A DNA stretch of 64,000 bases from positions 1-64,000 of the forward strand of contig JAJDOF010000102.1 in assembly GCA_022340305.1 (NCBI GenBank). The letters are read 5' to 3'. A model generated the notes under the pieces. It was not told where the DNA came from, searched no databases, and saw only the letters and a list, made by a program, of their open reading frames with translations. The first letter of the stretch is position 1. Each line of letters opens with the position of its first letter. The DNA is from Gammaproteobacteria bacterium. Its GTDB lineage: Bacteria > Pseudomonadota > Gammaproteobacteria > GCA-001735895. Position numbers and translations under genes: made by a program. Positions 8,712-22,082 of this stretch are shown here, one piece after another.

Positions 8712-8854
8712 ATGTCCGCAGCGAGGCGCCGATAGGTCGTGCCCTGCCGGCCTTTCGCGACAAAGGTGTGGCAGGCATAGCCAGACCTATGTCAAGCGCA
8801 CCGACCGAGGGAAAGGCTGGCAGGGCGCGGCATAGCGGCGCCGCAGTAGGACAT
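8712..8854. repeat. Nested imperfect inverted repeat in a convergent intergenic region
   Basis: Outer arms atgtcc..ggcgccg..gccctgccggccttt / aaaggctggcagggc..cggcgcc..ggacat; inner arms gacaaaggtgtggc / gccagacctatgtc (12/14 complementary). Confidence 0.7.
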
Positions 8855-9630
8855 TAAGCGCGATTGCCGCCGTCGAGGACCAGGGGATAACCCGTGATAA
8901 AGCGCGCTGAATCGCAGCAGGCGAATAACACCAGGTCTGCGACCTCCTCGGCCGAACACACGCGATTCAACGGCACTGCCTGTGCCGATTCGCGTAGACC
9001 GGTAGCGACATCGAGACCGCGATCACTGAACTCGCCCCGCAGCATCGGAGTATCCACATCGCCCGGACATATGGGCACGATGCGGATGCCGGCGGGCGCA
9101 TAATCGAGTGCCATTGCGCGCGTCATTTGCAGCACGGCGCCCTTGCTTGCGCAATAGGCGGTCAGGTGGGGGCTGCCGCTGAGTGCCGCATCCGAGGCGA
9201 TGTTAATGATCGTACCCTGGCTCGCTTTCAAGTGTGGTAGCGACGCCCGACAAATGTAAAACATGCCGTTGACATTGACGTTCATCGTCTGCAACCACTG
9301 CTCGTCAGTGGTCTCCTCGGCGGTCGCGTGGTAGATGATACCGGCGCTGTTAACGACAATATCGAGACCGCCAAGTATGCCGACAGCCTCGGTGACGATA
9401 AGATCGCATTTTTTACGCGCGCCGATATCGCCATCGACAAAAGCGATGCTGCCGGGCTGATTCTTTGCGGCTATGATGATCGCACGCGCTCGTTGGTGGT
9501 TGCGGCCGTTGATCACGACCCTGGCACCGGCCCGGGCGAAACTCAGCGCAGCGGCCTCGCCCATGCCGGAAGTACCGCCGGTAATCAGTACCCGCTTACC
9601 ACTGAAATCAAACTGGGGAGACGCCGACAC
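8854..9630 (-). CDS. SDR family oxidoreductase
   Basis: GKRVLITGGTSGMGEAAALSFARAGARVVINGR, YCASKGA; GTG start at 9630 proposed, just after the ALDH stop. Confidence 0.85.
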   Translation of the reverse strand: MSASPQFDFSGKRVLITGGTSGMGEAAALSFARAGARVVINGRNHQRARAIIIAAKNQPGSIAFVDGDIGARKKCDLIVTEAVGILGGLDIVVNSAGIIYHATAEETTDEQWLQTMNVNVNGMFYICRASLPHLKASQGTIINIASDAALSGSPHLTAYCASKGAVLQMTRAMALDYAPAGIRIVPICPGDVDTPMLRGEFSDRGLDVATGLRESAQAVPLNRVCSAEEVADLVLFACCDSARFITGYPLVLDGGNRA

Positions 9631-9632
9631 GA

Positions 9633-11066
9633 TTACCTGGCGCGCAATCCGGTGATCGCCTTCAGCTCGAGAAACTCGGCGAGACCCCACTTGCCTTTCT
9701 CACGACCGTTGCCCGACTGCTTGTAACCGCCGAAAGGCGTATCGCTGGTACCGCCCACATAATTGATGGCAACCTGGCCGGCGCGCAAGCGCCGTGCCAC
9801 TATCTTGACACGTTCCATTTCAGTCGAGCTGATGTAAGCCGCCAGACCGAAGTCACTGTCGTTGGCGATGGCGACCGCCTCGTCTTCACCCTCATAGCCG
9901 ATAATCACCAGCACCGGTCCGAAAATTTCCTCGCGCGCGATGGTCATCTGATTATCGACGTTGGCAAATACGGTCGGCTTCACATAGTATCCCGTCGGCA
10001 GGTGATCGGGACGCCCGGTGCCGCCGGTTACCAGCGTAGCGCCCTCGTCGATACCCGTCTGAATCAGTGCCTGAATCTTGTCGAACTGAGCCTTGTTGAC
10101 CACCGGCCCGATATGATCGCCGTGCTTGGTCGGTTCGTCGACGCCGATGCTTTCCGCTGCCTGTCTGGCGGCTTCGATAGCGACATCCAGCTTTGATTTG
10201 GGCACCAGCATGCGCGTCGGTGCATTACAGGACTGACCACTGTTGCTCATCATGTACAAAACACCATCCTTGACCGCTGTTTCAATATCGGTATCGATCA
10301 ACAGGATATTGGCCGATTTACCGCCGAGTTCCTGGCTGACGCGTTTGACGGTGTCAGCTGCAGCCTTCGCCACTGCAATGCCGCCGCGGGTCGACCCGGT
10401 GAACGACATCATGTCGATCTGCGGATGCCGCGACATGGCTTCACCCACCACGGGCCCGTAGCCATTCACCAGGTTGAAGACACCCGCAGGCACGCCTGCT
10501 TCGGCCAACACTTGGGCGAAAATCATCGAATCCAACGGTGATTCCTCGCTAGGCTTCAATACCATGGTGCAACCCGCTGCCAGCGCCGGTATCACTTTCA
10601 CTGCCACCTGGTTGATCGGCCAGTTCCACGGGGTAATCATGCCGCAGACACCGATCGGCTCGTAACGCAGGATCATGTCCTCCTCGACGCTCTCGAAACT
10701 GAAATTGAGCAGAGCCTTGATCGCGCTCTTGATGTGGCCAGCACCGAGCTTGGCCTGCGAGCCGCGTGCCAGATCGATGGGGGCCCCCATTTCCAGCTGG
10801 ATAGCCTCGGCGATTTCATCAAAATACTTCTTATAGACAACGCGGATTTTCTCCAGCAGCGCGAGTCGCTGTTGCACGCTCCACTGCGAGTAATCGACGA
10901 AAGCGCGCCGCGCTGCGGTTACGGCCCGGTCGACGTCAGCCGCGCTGCCGGCACTGACCTGGGTAAAGGCCTTTTCGGTCGCGGGGTTGATGACATCTAT
11001 GGTGGCCGGAGTGATCGGGTCAACCCATGCGCCGTCGATATAAAACTGCAAATGGTCCATCGGCAT
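9633..11066 (-). CDS. Aldehyde dehydrogenase family protein
   Basis: ORF to 11084; SQELGGKSANILL, NSGQSCNAPTRMLVP catalytic Cys, EEIFGPVL. Confidence 0.9.
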   Translation of the reverse strand: MPMDHLQFYIDGAWVDPITPATIDVINPATEKAFTQVSAGSAADVDRAVTAARRAFVDYSQWSVQQRLALLEKIRVVYKKYFDEIAEAIQLEMGAPIDLARGSQAKLGAGHIKSAIKALLNFSFESVEEDMILRYEPIGVCGMITPWNWPINQVAVKVIPALAAGCTMVLKPSEESPLDSMIFAQVLAEAGVPAGVFNLVNGYGPVVGEAMSRHPQIDMMSFTGSTRGGIAVAKAAADTVKRVSQELGGKSANILLIDTDIETAVKDGVLYMMSNSGQSCNAPTRMLVPKSKLDVAIEAARQAAESIGVDEPTKHGDHIGPVVNKAQFDKIQALIQTGIDEGATLVTGGTGRPDHLPTGYYVKPTVFANVDNQMTIAREEIFGPVLVIIGYEGEDEAVAIANDSDFGLAAYISSTEMERVKIVARRLRAGQVAINYVGGTSDTPFGGYKQSGNGREKGKWGLAEFLELKAITGLRAR

Positions 11067-15691: not shown

Positions 15692-15709
15692 TCCGGGCAT
15701 CATGCCCGG
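15692..15709. terminator. Hairpin between convergent genes, possible bidirectional terminator
   Basis: tccgggca-tca-tgcccggg stem-loop overlapping the CBS gene stop; no clear T-tract. Confidence 0.4.
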
Positions 15710-16104
15710 GAGCGCAGGTAATTTTCGTCCAGCGCTCGCAGGATGTCGAAGCGGCTGATCTGCCCGACCAACCGGCCTTCCCGTAATACCGGAAAACGCC
15801 TGAAACTCGACTTCAGAAATTTCTCCGCGACCTCGAGAAGGCCGCAGCCGGCGTCGATAGTTTCCACTTTACGGCTCATATAGTGTTCTACCCGGCCACC
15901 CCAGTCCTGGTGGTAAGCAGTATTGTAAACGATCGCGAGACAATCCTTTTTCGACAGCACACCAACCAGCTGCCCATCCGCATCGAGCACCGGCGCGCCC
16001 GAATAATGCGTTTCCAACAGGATGCGCATCGCGTGGATGATATCGTCCGCTGGCGTAAAGGTAACCAGGTCGGTCGCCATGTAATCTGCGATCGTCGTGT
16101 TCAT
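15700..16104 (-). CDS. CBS-domain pair protein
   Basis: Two CBS repeats: IADYMATDLVTFTPADDIIHAMRILLETHYSGAPVLDADGQLVGVLSKKD and MSRKVETIDAGCGLLEVAEKFLKSSFRRFPVLREGRLVGQISRFDIL. Confidence 0.88.
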   Translation of the reverse strand: MNTTIADYMATDLVTFTPADDIIHAMRILLETHYSGAPVLDADGQLVGVLSKKDCLAIVYNTAYHQDWGGRVEHYMSRKVETIDAGCGLLEVAEKFLKSSFRRFPVLREGRLVGQISRFDILRALDENYLRSRA

Positions 16105-16241
16105 GGTCTACTCCTGCGCATGATGCATGCGCTGCAGTTGCCGCAACTGCCGCAAAGCGGGCGCTTTCTCAGTATCAAGCCAATGGACAATCCGGCCACC
16201 GCCAGCAGGAAAATTGGAATCGCGATAAACATTGTCGTCAT
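16101..16241 (-). CDS. nqrM: NqrM-like NQR maturation micro-protein (46 aa)
   Basis: Hand-translated, not in supplied ORF track: MTTMFIAIPIFLLAVAGLSIGLILRKRPLCGSCGNCSACIMRRSRP*; one TM then a 4-Cys tail; between nqrF and the CBS gene, ATGA overlap. Confidence 0.75.
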   Translation of the reverse strand: MTTMFIAIPIFLLAVAGLSIGLILRKRPLCGSCGNCSACIMRRSRP

Positions 16242-16262
16242 GTCGAGTCTCTCCGGAAGTGA

Positions 16263-17483
16263 TTAGCTGCCAAAATCGTCAAAGTAAATATTCTCCGCGT
16301 CGACACCCAGTTCGTCGAGCATCGCCTGCACCGACTCCACCATCAGCGGCGGTCCGCATAAATAATACTCGCAGCGCTCGGGAGCCGCATGCCGCCCGAG
16401 GTAGTGGTCGAAGGCTACCTGGTGGATGAAACCGGTATAACCTTCCCAATCGTCACCTTCTTCCGGCTCGGACAACGCGGGGTGCCATTCGAAATTGGCA
16501 TACTCCTGCTGTAGCTTTTCGAACACGTCGGCGTAATAGAGTTCGCGTCTTGAACGTGCCCCGTACCAGTAAGTGATCTTGCGCTCGCTACGCTGCGTCT
16601 CCAGCAAATCGAGTATCTGCGCACGTAACGGTGCCATGCCAGCACCGCCGCCGATAAACACCAGTTCCCGGTCGGACGGCTCGACTGCAAAGTTTCCGTA
16701 GGGGCCTTTCAGCGTAACCGGATCACCGGGCTTCAGGGCAAACAGCCAGCTCGAGACGACCCCAGGCGGCGCGTCGGGTTCAGCAGGCGGCGGCAGCGCG
16801 ATACGAATATTGAGCATGACCAACCCCTTTTCCGCGGGATGATTCGCCATCGAGTAGGCGCGTGTCACTCCGACGTCGCTGCGAGCCTTGAGCCGCCACA
16901 GGTTCATGTTATCCCAGACGTCGCGATACTCGGGCTCGATGTCGAGATCGCTGAACTCGAGCTGGTAGGGTGGACTGGTCAATTCTACGAAACCACCGGC
17001 GCGAAAATCCATGGTCTCGCCCTCGGGCAGGCGCAGCACGATCTCGCGAATCAGCGTACTGACGTTGCACGTTCGCTCAACCAGACAATCCCAGGTCCTG
17101 ACATCGAAATAAGCCTCGTCGATCTCGATCGACAGCGGTGCCAATACTCGCACCTGGCACGCCAGCCGCCCACCTCTGCTGGCCTCGCGCCGGCTCATAT
17201 GGGCAAGCTCCTGCGGCCCCGCGACGCTATCTCCCTCGACCACTCGGATCTTGCACAATCCACAGGTGCCGGCACCGCCGCAGGCGCTCGGCAAATGAAT
17301 ATCGGCCTGCTCGCAAACTTCGAGCAACCGCTGCCCGATCTGCGCCTCGACAGACTTGTGTCCGTTGATCTTGATCTCGCATTCGCCGCGCGGCACCAGT
17401 ACCCGCCGCGCGCCGAGGACGAATAGCGTCAGCAACAGGACGATTACCGAAAAGAAGATGACGCCGAGGATCGCTTCGAGCAT
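16263..17483 (-). CDS. nqrF: NQR subunit F (2Fe-2S, FAD, NADH-binding)
   Basis: CGGAGTCGLCKIRV ferredoxin motif; RAYSMAN; GGGAGMAPLRAQI; YLCGPPLMVESV. Confidence 0.96.
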   Translation of the reverse strand: MLEAILGVIFFSVIVLLLTLFVLGARRVLVPRGECEIKINGHKSVEAQIGQRLLEVCEQADIHLPSACGGAGTCGLCKIRVVEGDSVAGPQELAHMSRREASRGGRLACQVRVLAPLSIEIDEAYFDVRTWDCLVERTCNVSTLIREIVLRLPEGETMDFRAGGFVELTSPPYQLEFSDLDIEPEYRDVWDNMNLWRLKARSDVGVTRAYSMANHPAEKGLVMLNIRIALPPPAEPDAPPGVVSSWLFALKPGDPVTLKGPYGNFAVEPSDRELVFIGGGAGMAPLRAQILDLLETQRSERKITYWYGARSRRELYYADVFEKLQQEYANFEWHPALSEPEEGDDWEGYTGFIHQVAFDHYLGRHAAPERCEYYLCGPPLMVESVQAMLDELGVDAENIYFDDFGS

Positions 17484-18088
17484 CAGCCCATCCCCGCAAA
17501 CGCGAGAAAACCGAGCGACATGATGCCCGCGACGATAAAATTGATGCCGAGGCCCTGCAGGCCGTCCGGGATGTCTGCGTACTTGAGCCGTTCACGGATT
17601 GCGGCAAACATGACGATGGCAAGCGCCCAGCCGAGCCCCGAGCCGAAGCCGAATACCACGCTTTCGCCAAAGCTGTAGCTGCGCTCCACCATGAACAGGC
17701 TGCCGCCGAGAATGGCGCAATTGACGGTGATCAATGGCAGGAAGATACCCATTGCGCCATGCAGTTTGGGCACGTGGAATTCCAGCGTCATTTCCAGCAC
17801 CTGCACCATCGCCGCGATCACACCGATAAACGCGATCAGTTTCAGAAAGGAAAGATCGACATCGCCGAGGCCGGCCCATGCAAGCGCGCCCGGCGCCAGC
17901 AGTTGCGTAAAAATCAGGTTATTCACCGGAACGGTCACGGTTTGCACCACCAGCACGGCCAGGCCGACGCCAAACGCGGTATCAACCCGTTTCGATACCG
18001 CGAGGAAAGTGCACATGCCGAGAAAGAACGATAACGCGAGGTTATCGAGAAAGATCGATCGCAGTAATAACTCGGCGAACGCGTTCAT
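17483..18088 (-). CDS. nqrE: NQR subunit E
   Basis: [43 protein letters not shown]. Confidence 0.96.
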
Positions 18089-18747
18089 TTGGATCCCTGC
18101 TCGCGCGCACGCAGCGAAAATTCGGGTTGCTCGACCTGCTGCGGGCGTTTGCGCCGAATGAACCAGATAAGGCCGCCAATGATGAAAAATGCGCTCGGCG
18201 GCAACAACATCAGGTGCAGCGGTTCGAATGCGCCACCCTCGCTCACCGGCACCAGGATTTGCACGTTGAGCAGGCTGCCTTTACCGAAAAACTCGCGGAT
18301 CGCGCCGACGATAATCAAAATCAGCGAATAGCCAAGCCCATTGCCGATGCCGTCGAGGACGCTGGCGAAAAAACCATTGTGCATCGCGTAACTTTGCGCA
18401 CGTCCAAGCACGATGCAGTTGGTGATTACCAGACCGACGAACACCGACAGTCGCTTGCTCATTTCGAAGGCATAAGCCTGCAATATCTGGTCGACGACGA
18501 TAACCAGCGAAGCAATGATGGTAATCTGCACGATAATGCGCACCGAGTGCGGCAGCTGCCTGCGTATCAGGCTCACCGAACCATTGCCGAGTGCGAGCAC
18601 GCACACCACGACCAGGCTCATCAGCAACGCCGTGTCCAGCGACGTGGTAACCGCAAGCGCCGAACAGATACCGAGAATCTGCAGGGTCAACGGGTTTTCA
18701 TCGATCAGCGGTCGCGTCAGTATTTTCCAGTAACTGTCCTTCATCAT
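18085..18747 (-). CDS. nqrD: NQR subunit D
   Basis: [59 protein letters not shown]. Confidence 0.96.
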
Positions 18748-19520
18748 GGATTCGTCTCGCGGATACGTTGCAGGAACGGGCCAAAGCCAAACTCTCCGAG
18801 CCAGAAGCGCACCATGCCATCGACACCACGAGCGGTGCGGGTAGCGCCCGAGATGCCGTCTACCTGGTATTTCGCGTACATATCTGAGTCTTCACCGCGG
18901 CCCGTGTCAACCCCGATGCGCACAACCCCTTCATCATCGTATATGGGTCGACCTCGCCACTGTGCCTGCCAATCGGGATCCTCGACCCGGGAGCCCACCC
19001 CGGGGGTTTCGCCCTGCTGGTAAATCTTGAGCGCGCGCACGGTGCTTGCATTACCCTCGAGCAATAGCCAGGCGCGAAGGATCGACTGGTAACCGCGCCC
19101 CGAGACCGACAGTATTATCGTATGGATCGCGCCGTCGCTCTCACGCAACAGGTAAACCTGGGCATGTAAGGCACGCCGCTTGAGCCTGGCCAGGTCGAGT
19201 TCGCGCGGTATCTCGACACTGGTTTGCGGATTGTTGGCAGCGGCTTCAGCATCGAAGTCGGCCGGATCGATGCTATCGTCGAACTTGCCGCTGGCGAGTT
19301 CGACCACGTGCGCCTCGAGATTTTCCGTCTTCAACGCCGGCTCGATGCCCGACAGGGCTTCCCGCACCAGCTGGTTGATGCGCTCGGCCTTGATATTTGC
19401 CTGCTGCACAGGCCGCAGGCTGACCGCGACCACCGATACCAGCAGTGCACATACAAACGCGACCGCGAGCGTAACGCCAAGTGCGCGCGCGGTGCTATCC
19501 GGGTTAGCGGTCTCAGACAT
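18744..19520 (-). CDS. nqrC: NQR subunit C (covalent FMN subunit)
   Basis: [32 protein letters not shown]: SGATxT flavinylation motif intact. Confidence 0.95.
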
Positions 19521-20604
19521 GACGGCCCGCCCGCTGACGTATATTGCTTGCGATTACCGCGTGATCGATCAGCGGTGCAAGGATCGAGGCCAGCAGCATC
19601 GCCGGTATCACCGCATCGGGATGATTGGCGTTGACGACCCGGATCAGCACGACCAGCGCTCCGATCAGGAATCCCTGTATCCACCTGCCCGGGTTGGTGC
19701 AGCAGGAGGCGACCGGATCGCAGGCGAGAAACACCGCGCCGAAAGCGAAGCTGCCGAGCAACAGGTGCCAGTAGCCCGGCATCGCGCTGGCGCCAGAGCC
19801 CTCGCCCAGCAAATTGCAAAGGGTGGCTACGACGATCAGTCCGATCACCTGCGCGAGCAGCAGGCGCCACGCGATCACGCGTGTAACCAGCAACATCGCA
19901 GCGCCGATGACGACCGCGAGCACCGAGGTGGTGCCCATGCTACCGGCAACGCTACCGATAAAAGCCGAGCCGAGATCGATCCCGGCACCGGCCAGGGCGG
20001 CTTCGCCGCCGCGATGAAACAGCGCGATTGCGTTGCTGCCGGCATATCCCGCTAATCCCTCCCATAGAGGATGTGCCCCGGAGATGTTCGGGAAGCTGAC
20101 CTGCACGATCGCGATACCGAGCAACGCCGGACTCAGAAAGGTCCTGCCATCGCCGCCGAAAATAGCGGAGCCGAGCAGAACCGCAAACGAAATACCGAAC
20201 ACAATATGATAAAACGGCGCAGCGCCGGGGAGCAGCAAGGTGAACAGCAGCGCGGTCAGCACAAAACCGCGCGCCATTGGCTGTCCACGGCCGCGCGCGA
20301 TCAACCATTCCCATAAGCCACCAATCACCAGCGCCAGCGCCAGCATCGGCAACATGTGCGCCAGGCCGGCGACAAGCCAGTCGTAAACACCGGCATCCGC
20401 GTAGCCGGCACCAAGCGCGCGTGCAATACGGCTGCGAACATCATCACCGACACTATCCGGATTACTCACCAGTCGCGTCAGGTACTGATACCCGGTGTTG
20501 AGCAGTGCCGCGACGGTGACCGGCAATAGCGCCAACAGGCGCAGCCCGAGGAGTCCCCGGTAGCCGTCGAAAAAGCCGCTGGAGCGTTTAATCGACATCG
20601 TCAA
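19513..20604 (-). CDS. nqrB: NQR subunit B, divergent (FMN-attachment Thr absent)
   Basis: LLGSAIFGGDGRTFLSPALLGIAIVQVSFPNISGAHPLWEGLAGYAGSNAIALFHRGG; YWHLLLGSFAFGAVFLACDPV; APLIDHAVIASNIRQR. Confidence 0.94.
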   Translation of the reverse strand: MTMSIKRSSGFFDGYRGLLGLRLLALLPVTVAALLNTGYQYLTRLVSNPDSVGDDVRSRIARALGAGYADAGVYDWLVAGLAHMLPMLALALVIGGLWEWLIARGRGQPMARGFVLTALLFTLLLPGAAPFYHIVFGISFAVLLGSAIFGGDGRTFLSPALLGIAIVQVSFPNISGAHPLWEGLAGYAGSNAIALFHRGGEAALAGAGIDLGSAFIGSVAGSMGTTSVLAVVIGAAMLLVTRVIAWRLLLAQVIGLIVVATLCNLLGEGSGASAMPGYWHLLLGSFAFGAVFLACDPVASCCTNPGRWIQGFLIGALVVLIRVVNANHPDAVIPAMLLASILAPLIDHAVIASNIRQRAGRHV

Positions 20605-21800
20605 TGCGCTCCTTCGAGCTGCTCCAGCACGCGACGCAGCAGTGATCCGTAATCACTCCCGGAAACGCAGGCATGGCTGAGCGGGGCCAGGTCTTCTTCG
20701 TCAAGTTCCAGCGCGCCAAGTTGCCGTGCGCGTTCGACATCACCGAGCTGCAGGGCGCGCATCAACGGCACCGCGTAGATGCCGGGCGGCGCCACCCGTT
20801 CGAGTTGCTCACTCGGGATCAACGGCGCGTTGCTCGAAGCGGCATCACCAGCGTCGACTGCGGCGCCCTCAAGTGCGCTTATCTGCCGTTGTCTCGCGCC
20901 CAGAAACCTTTCCGACGCGGCGAGCCGGCGCCCGTAGATCGGTGATCCGGCCAGTATGGCGCTGCGCGAGTCCGAGAGCTCGCCTAACAGTACTTCATCG
21001 ATCGATGCCCCGACCGGTAACAGCAGGCTGCGCGGATTCGTTACTGCATTGCCGCCCAGCGATATCACCCGCTGTAGCCACGGTGCCCCGTGTAACAGCA
21101 GATGCCCCAGCGCAATAACATCCTGGTAACCGAGATGCCATACTTCGCCACCGTCAAAACCGATCGGGCAAAGTGCATGAATGTGCGTGCCGGGAAGACC
21201 CGCCGAATATCCGCCGCTGAACGGGACGCAATGGATATCTGCGGACTCCGTAAAAGTCAGTGCGTGACCGGGGGCGTGACAGACGTAAAGTGGCGCGGCG
21301 CTAATCGCGGACAACAGCGCTATCGCGGCCCGGAATTCATCGAGACAGGCATCTATGATCGGTCGTGGTTCGGGCGCCATCGGCGCATTATCGAGCGCGG
21401 TAATGAAAATAGCGCCGGGCTCCGCGTCCGGGTGCGGGATATTGTCGAAGGGGCGGGTTCGCAGGCTACTCCAGACACCGGTTTCGAGCAGGAAGCGCCG
21501 TAGCGTCCCGCGATCCTGGTTCGATGGGTTTTCATGGCTGACCGAACCGAGATCATCGTCCATCTCGATTTGCACGGCAACCAGCCGACGCAGCGGGCCG
21601 CGAACGATACGTTCGATTTTGCCGGCACGCGGTGCGCAAATACGGATATCTCGCCTGCGAACATCGCGCAACAGCACGGCACCAGCCTGCACCTGGTCGC
21701 CTTCCGCGTACATCACCTCGAAATTGACGCCACGGTAGTCACGCCCCAGTAAAGCGGTGCGTGATACATTCCTGGTTTCAAGGTTTAACGACTCGAGCAT
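20601..21800 (-). CDS. nqrA: NQR subunit A, short form
   Basis: ALLGRDYRGVNFE, GVWSSLRTRPFDNIP, GLPGTHIHALCPI, LGALELDEEDLAPLSHAC; ATG at 21800 preceded by AAGGGAGGGGT; ORF extends to GTG 21824. Confidence 0.92.
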   Translation of the reverse strand: MLESLNLETRNVSRTALLGRDYRGVNFEVMYAEGDQVQAGAVLLRDVRRRDIRICAPRAGKIERIVRGPLRRLVAVQIEMDDDLGSVSHENPSNQDRGTLRRFLLETGVWSSLRTRPFDNIPHPDAEPGAIFITALDNAPMAPEPRPIIDACLDEFRAAIALLSAISAAPLYVCHAPGHALTFTESADIHCVPFSGGYSAGLPGTHIHALCPIGFDGGEVWHLGYQDVIALGHLLLHGAPWLQRVISLGGNAVTNPRSLLLPVGASIDEVLLGELSDSRSAILAGSPIYGRRLAASERFLGARQRQISALEGAAVDAGDAASSNAPLIPSEQLERVAPPGIYAVPLMRALQLGDVERARQLGALELDEEDLAPLSHACVSGSDYGSLLRRVLEQLEGAH

Positions 21801-22082
21801 ACCCCTCCCTTGCGTTGGATTCACGCTGAGAGATTCTAGAGAACGGAGTTTTAAGTTTAATGACCTATATCACCTTATCACCCCGTTTCTCCGATTCGTG
21901 CCTGCACCATCGCAAGGCGAAGACCCTCACGCCAGACAGCGCTTCTACAACAGTGCTGGCGGCTGGCATGGATCCTGATAGTTGCGGCGCAGGGAAGACC
22001 GGAGCGGTGAATCTCTGGCCGGAGTTAGCGGTTGGTGATATGCTCCGCGGCCTGAAGAAGATGCGGCGGGGAGTGGTCAAAA

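Follow-up and report, generated by a model that had tools for sequence, protein, structure and literature searches.

The stretch of DNA analysed here, hereafter the window, comprises 64,000 nucleotides and carries on its minus strand the genes nqrA to nqrF, in their usual order, followed by a short reading frame of 46 codons. Since 60 aa is a common threshold for listing open reading frames, a frame of this size falls beneath it. The original prediction compared its product with NqrM and related it to the NQR encoded upstream, described there as divergent. The locus therefore raises the question of whether this frame is a gene at all, whether its product is an NqrM, and what such a reduced protein would do next to this NQR.

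A coding frame between nqrF and a CBS-pair gene

Re-translation of positions 16101-16241 on the minus strand returned exactly the predicted 46-aa protein, with its ATG at 16241 and its TGA at 16103-16101. The frame indeed lies immediately downstream of nqrF, its ATG being 21 nt past the end of that gene (16263). A Shine-Dalgarno-like sequence, GGAGAG (16249..16254, minus strand), is found 7 nt 5' of the ATG, and GGAG or a similar sequence precedes the gene in most relatives. At the other end, the stop codon overlaps the start of a gene for a CBS-pair protein of 134 aa (15700..16104, minus strand), conserved downstream in the genus, within an ATGA (16101..16104, minus strand) that is kept in 14 of 17 loci. 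Promoter and terminator scans gave results no better than those obtained with shuffles.

The prediction depended on conservation of the frame in relatives, and the frame is kept at the same position in every relative that could be checked. The core orthologues have a median pN/pS of 0.26, and the variable columns at codon positions 1, 2 and 3 number 24, 12 and 38 of 44, respectively. Based on the conserved frame, the pN/pS ratio and the codon-position pattern, we conclude that short nqrM is a real protein-coding gene under purifying selection.

The distribution of the gene was recorded in a sample of 41 genomes from the order, each searched in full for nqrF. Genes resembling nqrF were present in 21 of them, including G028, whose contig breaks inside nqrF and leaves the 3' flank unreadable, and G023, whose gene has 36% identity over part of the protein, is accompanied by no further nqr gene in the stretch examined, and probably does not belong to an NQR. 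A short Cys-tailed frame follows nqrF in all 19 genomes that are readable beyond the 3' end of nqrF, that of the window included, and does so directly save for copy C84 of G012, where the gap is about 115 nt. The 20 nqrF-negative genomes gave no match to short NqrM better than E=0.004, and none that was convincing. Their best match, at that value, lies at a contig edge in G005, where the contig (L136 1-110; G005:C285) begins inside a frame with RKPLRGSCGRHCVLACAG; this may be one more short NqrM, its nqr operon missing from the assembly. The named carriers, retrieved with a scan pattern tied to PL-x-GSCG, which more distant short forms could escape, are all gammaproteobacterial MAGs or symbionts of one genus-level group, the Olavius algarvensis Gamma 3 endosymbiont (L067) among them.

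Homology to NqrM and architecture of the Cys tail

The suspected resemblance to NqrM was borne out as homology, both by profile comparison and by the scores of an NqrM HMM. Profile-profile alignment of the short family with NqrM using hhalign gave a probability of 99.2% (P=6e-20) over 36 ungapped columns. A profile of full-length canonical NqrM, built from 22 NqrMs that all match PF04400, scored the short forms at 35-51 bits, versus a maximum of 14.4 bits on 1050 shuffles in which the compositions of helix and tail were kept separate. The reverse search, with the profile of the short family, retrieved canonical NqrM across the class, mostly beside nqrF. The similarity covers the helix and the SCG motif free of gaps, with G21, G31, S32, C33 and G34 at identical residue numbers in the short and canonical (DUF539, PF04400; Vibrio) proteins. 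On this evidence from sequence comparison we take the 46-aa protein to be a true NqrM homologue.

The Pfam model of the family misses the short form. Its gathering score (22 bits) was reached by none of 16 short members, the best E value being 0.1, in one member, and a Pfam search with the window frame alone did not report NqrM. This model starts only at residue 22 of canonical NqrM and has the CxC...C loop as its second half; it misses the short form because most of what it covers is the tail, the very part that is rebuilt in short NqrM. Short NqrM thus shows why annotation by family models overlooks such genes. As it falls below the Pfam cut-off and also lacks CxC...C, two of the features by which NqrM is defined, we regard it as a homologous variant that lies beyond the family as now defined and whose mode of action is probably that of NqrM.

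The single transmembrane helix of the original prediction was recovered in an AlphaFold2 model at residues 2-26 (16164..16238, minus strand), ending in a basic RKR stretch, with a mean pLDDT of 92-95 over residues 1-20; the tail is modelled with too low a confidence for any metal-site geometry to be deduced. The predicted C-x2-C-x2-C-x2-C spacing is present in the window frame, namely, C30-x2-C33-x2-C36-x2-C39, but the conserved set consists of the last three only. The latter (C33-x2-C36-x2-C39; 16125..16145, minus strand) are invariant, whereas position 30 (Cys30 codon, 16152..16154, minus strand) is Gly or Lys in 5 of 15 distinct short-NqrM sequences, for which four Cys were rejected as a conserved set. 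Most of the genus has a fourth Cys at position 30; L079-L081 have it at position 41, and L077 and L078 lack it. Similarly, the description of the protein as truncated holds for its tail, which is shortened, but not for its N-terminal 35 residues, which are complete and collinear with NqrM.

Cys33, invariant within GSCGN or GSCGG, aligns with Cys33 of canonical NqrM, and the downstream Cys of the canonical CxC...C (C45, C47, C51) are absent, with C36 and C39 instead. In V. harveyi, loss of Cys33 of NqrM is reportedly the only one that abolishes maturation of NQR, loss of the other Cys being said merely to lower the yield. Exactly Cys33 is kept in the short family, and the other Cys are rearranged. 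It may be nature's minimum NqrM, with one helix, Cys33 and two more close-spaced Cys, and it offers a natural experiment on the Cys needed to load the buried [2Fe-2S] of NQR.

Apart from the residues listed above, the short form has in common with NqrM its single N-terminal helix, its site beside nqrF and its limitation to NQR-bearing genomes in the sampled order. It differs in its length (46-49 aa versus about 53-94 aa), in the second Gly of SCGG, which is mostly Asn, and in its score below the Pfam cut-off. Some canonical-type NqrMs (e.g. L033, L042, L088 and L113; 52-56 aa) are also compact, some of them with only three Cys, but they keep SCGG, and the loop before the next Cys is longer or differs. 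For the L033 and L042 proteins, the associated NQRs (L127 and L130, respectively) retain the FMN-attachment Thr of NqrB discussed below.

A separate full-length nqrM elsewhere would have spoken against the original prediction, and none was found in the genome of origin, which is 86% complete and gave no match to PF04400 at E<=10. The 18 genomes with the 46-49-aa form gave no PF04400 match above cut-off either, and several of these are 96-100% complete. Across the genus the sole match above cut-off comes from G012, where it lies beside a second, canonical nqr operon. Weak matches in other genomes of the genus were taken as chance (<18 bits, several with internal stops).

Two other accounts of the frame have to be weighed at this point. 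It could be an open frame that arose by chance in the spacer, as it is short and no library annotates it above cut-off; however, the Shine-Dalgarno-like sequence, the ATGA overlap and the co-occurrence with nqr go against such an origin, and conservation of the frame and purifying selection refute it, leaving it virtually no credence. Alternatively, the protein could come from another family of small Cys-rich membrane proteins, FeoB_associated (PF12669), its likeness to NqrM having arisen by convergence. Members of this family have the same layout, a single helix and then a short Cys-rich tail; PF12669 is the top single Pfam match of the window frame (17.6 bits, E=0.0046), and it matches 10 of 16 members weakly (best E 7.6e-5). 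Yet 17.6 bits is under the PF12669 gathering cut-off of 27 bits, for which this identity was rejected; the neighbours are nqrF and the CBS gene, with no feoB; and the gapless similarity to NqrM over the helix and the SCG motif is far above that of shuffles. PF12669 was also found in none of 143 genomes of the class, an argument of little weight because control genomes were equally silent. Overall, we consider an origin in this family highly improbable.

The divergent NQR encoded upstream

The six nqr genes upstream of short nqrM, all on the minus strand, encode NqrF (16263..17483, 406 aa), NqrE (17483..18088, 201 aa), NqrD (18085..18747, 220 aa), NqrC (18744..19520, 258 aa), NqrB (19513..20604, 363 aa) and NqrA (20601..21824, 407 aa as listed, with a likely ATG start at 21800). 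In NCBIfam, nqrC, nqrD, nqrE and nqrF score above cut-off, nqrF with 522 bits versus the 295 required by TIGR01941, and nqrA and nqrB score below theirs, which was the first sign of a divergent complex. Elsewhere in the same genome there are three ApbE genes; it also encodes a subunit of complex I.

With the Na+-NQR of V. cholerae (PDB 7xk3, 8a1u) the complex shares its six subunits, their order, the cluster ligands and the FMN-attachment Thr of NqrC, which stands in SGAT. In the window as in the other short-NqrM NQRs, this Thr, C29 and C112 of NqrD, C26 and C120 of NqrE, and the four 2Fe-2S Cys of NqrF are all kept. The differences are concentrated in NqrB and NqrA. Where V. cholerae NqrB has Thr236, to which FMN is covalently bound (numbering counted on a printed alignment), the window encodes Asn191 (20032..20034, minus strand; GYSGATAL to GYAGSNAI). 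In the short-NqrM NQRs that align there (the window, L066-L080 and L135), the position holds D, N, E, K or R, and never Thr, L081 and L137 being left unscored because their alignment breaks at this site. The comparison NQRs L082-L118 have Thr wherever NqrB is readable, as do 29 of 29 further NqrB sequences from a sample of the phylum; in the extended set the exceptions are L125, with Ser, and the unaligned L137, itself of the short-NqrM group. As read, nqrB of L137 (1716-2507, G009) and L081 encodes only about 263 aa, a truncation or an assembly error.

Riboflavin is contacted by Thr162, Asn200, Asn203 and Asp346 of NqrB (PMC9325719), which are conserved in canonical NqrB and, except for Asp346, mostly changed in the short-NqrM clade. 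The N-terminal stretch of NqrB, which forms amphipathic helices closing on the quinone (PMC10643135), is about 40 residues shorter in these NQRs, that of the window included, so that these helices are missing. The membrane loop of NqrA that intertwines with this stretch (PMC9325719) is reduced from about 49-55 residues in canonical NqrA to 15-31 wherever it is fully readable, and NqrA of the window lacks most of the loop after residue 330 of V. cholerae NqrA. At the quinone site, Gly140, Gly141 and Phe159 are for the most part retained.

A tree of NqrD, NqrE and NqrF unites the short-NqrM NQRs in one clade (SH-aLRT 100), to which the long-branched L123 is possibly sister; short NqrM co-occurs one-to-one with this clade. 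Because the clade shares ancestry, the pairing of short NqrM with Thr-less NqrB may have arisen once, or twice if L123 is counted, rather than many times. The suggestion that the short protein is matched to a divergent NQR thus gained strong support, in the lost NqrB sites, the shortened NqrA loop and the single clade. By itself, loss of the NqrB Thr is compatible with non-covalent FMN. The cluster that NqrM would load is thus intact, while the part of the complex that handles flavin and quinone has changed, a combination that matches a retained but minimal NqrM.

Two-subunit Nqr/Rnf-like complexes (PMC11334425) likewise include an NqrB/RnfD-family membrane subunit that lacks the flavinylation Thr; unlike these, the operon in the window has six nqr genes, the NqrC Thr and all Fe-S ligands. 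An NQR clade devoid of the FMN-attachment site of NqrB makes the assumed need for covalent NqrB FMN in Na+ pumping testable in a natural enzyme.

Genome G012, a single MAG with 6% contamination, provides a natural control, having a canonical and a divergent NQR in one genome. In its canonical NQR (L124), NqrB has the FMN Thr and the accompanying NqrM is canonical; in its divergent NQR (L123), NqrB is devoid of this Thr and the NqrM is short-tailed (SCGG...C..C). At L123 (G012:C84), a gene for a multihaem cytochrome c with a signal peptide and several CxxCH motifs (8766-9905, minus strand) lies directly upstream of the Thr-less nqrB, at the position expected for nqrA, on a contig that ends just upstream of it; the only NqrA found in G012 belongs to the canonical operon. 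The arrangement is reminiscent of RNF operons that include a multihaem cytochrome. A search of the class with the L123 NqrB retrieved no recognisable second cytochrome-linked NQR, the best matches being distant. In this related complex, a cytochrome c in the place of NqrA would suggest periplasmic exit of electrons.

A proposed role in NQR maturation

Insertion of the intramembrane [2Fe-2S] of NqrD/E seems to require NqrM (PMC12174285). We consider it likely that the 46-aa frame encodes a genuine NqrM homologue, its tail cut to the minimum, that serves as maturation factor of the divergent NQR upstream. From what is described for the family we infer its part in NQR maturation, or in iron or Fe-S insertion; expression, topology, iron binding and iron delivery are likewise inferences. 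The single helix would anchor the protein in the membrane and hold the short Cys tail at the membrane surface, most likely on the cytoplasmic side given the basic residues that follow the helix. There, the tail would bind iron or a nascent cluster and hand it over to NqrD/NqrE, which retain all four Cys that ligate the cluster.

Alternatively, a protein descended from NqrM could by now belong permanently to the divergent NQR, as a small subunit or regulator that keeps an iron or Fe-S centre of its own instead of delivering iron. The tight cluster of three Cys, unlike canonical NqrM, would suit such a subunit, as would the strict pairing with an NQR clade that is missing other cofactor sites. 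However, canonical NqrM is described as a maturation protein, no NqrM-like chain was found among the solved structures of the PDB, NQR entries included, and the ligands of NqrD/E that need loading are intact, and we therefore regard this conversion as unlikely. Returning to the maturation factor, it is possible, though we advance this with considerable doubt, that the NQR served by short NqrM as its dedicated assembly factor is functional yet rewired, a six-subunit complex with no covalent FMN on NqrB and with changed flavin and quinone sites, so that electrons exit by a route other than that of known Na+-NQR.

Additional observations concern the neighbouring genes. Ser replaces Thr at the FMN site of NqrC (SGAS) in L084, L091-L093, L101, L102, L104, L106, L109, L118 and L125, which are gammaproteobacterial NQRs with canonical NqrM. 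The CBS-pair gene follows nqrM in short-NqrM and in many canonical nqr operons alike, namely, in L066-L081, L088, L123, L124, L126, L128 and L130-L134, and a literature search on this gene of nqr operons returned no paper. At L088 (2100-2655), from a MAG labelled Alphaproteobacteria and with nqrB beyond the stretch examined, a 56-aa NqrM (SCGGLACAGLSCRTC) is followed by the same CBS gene.
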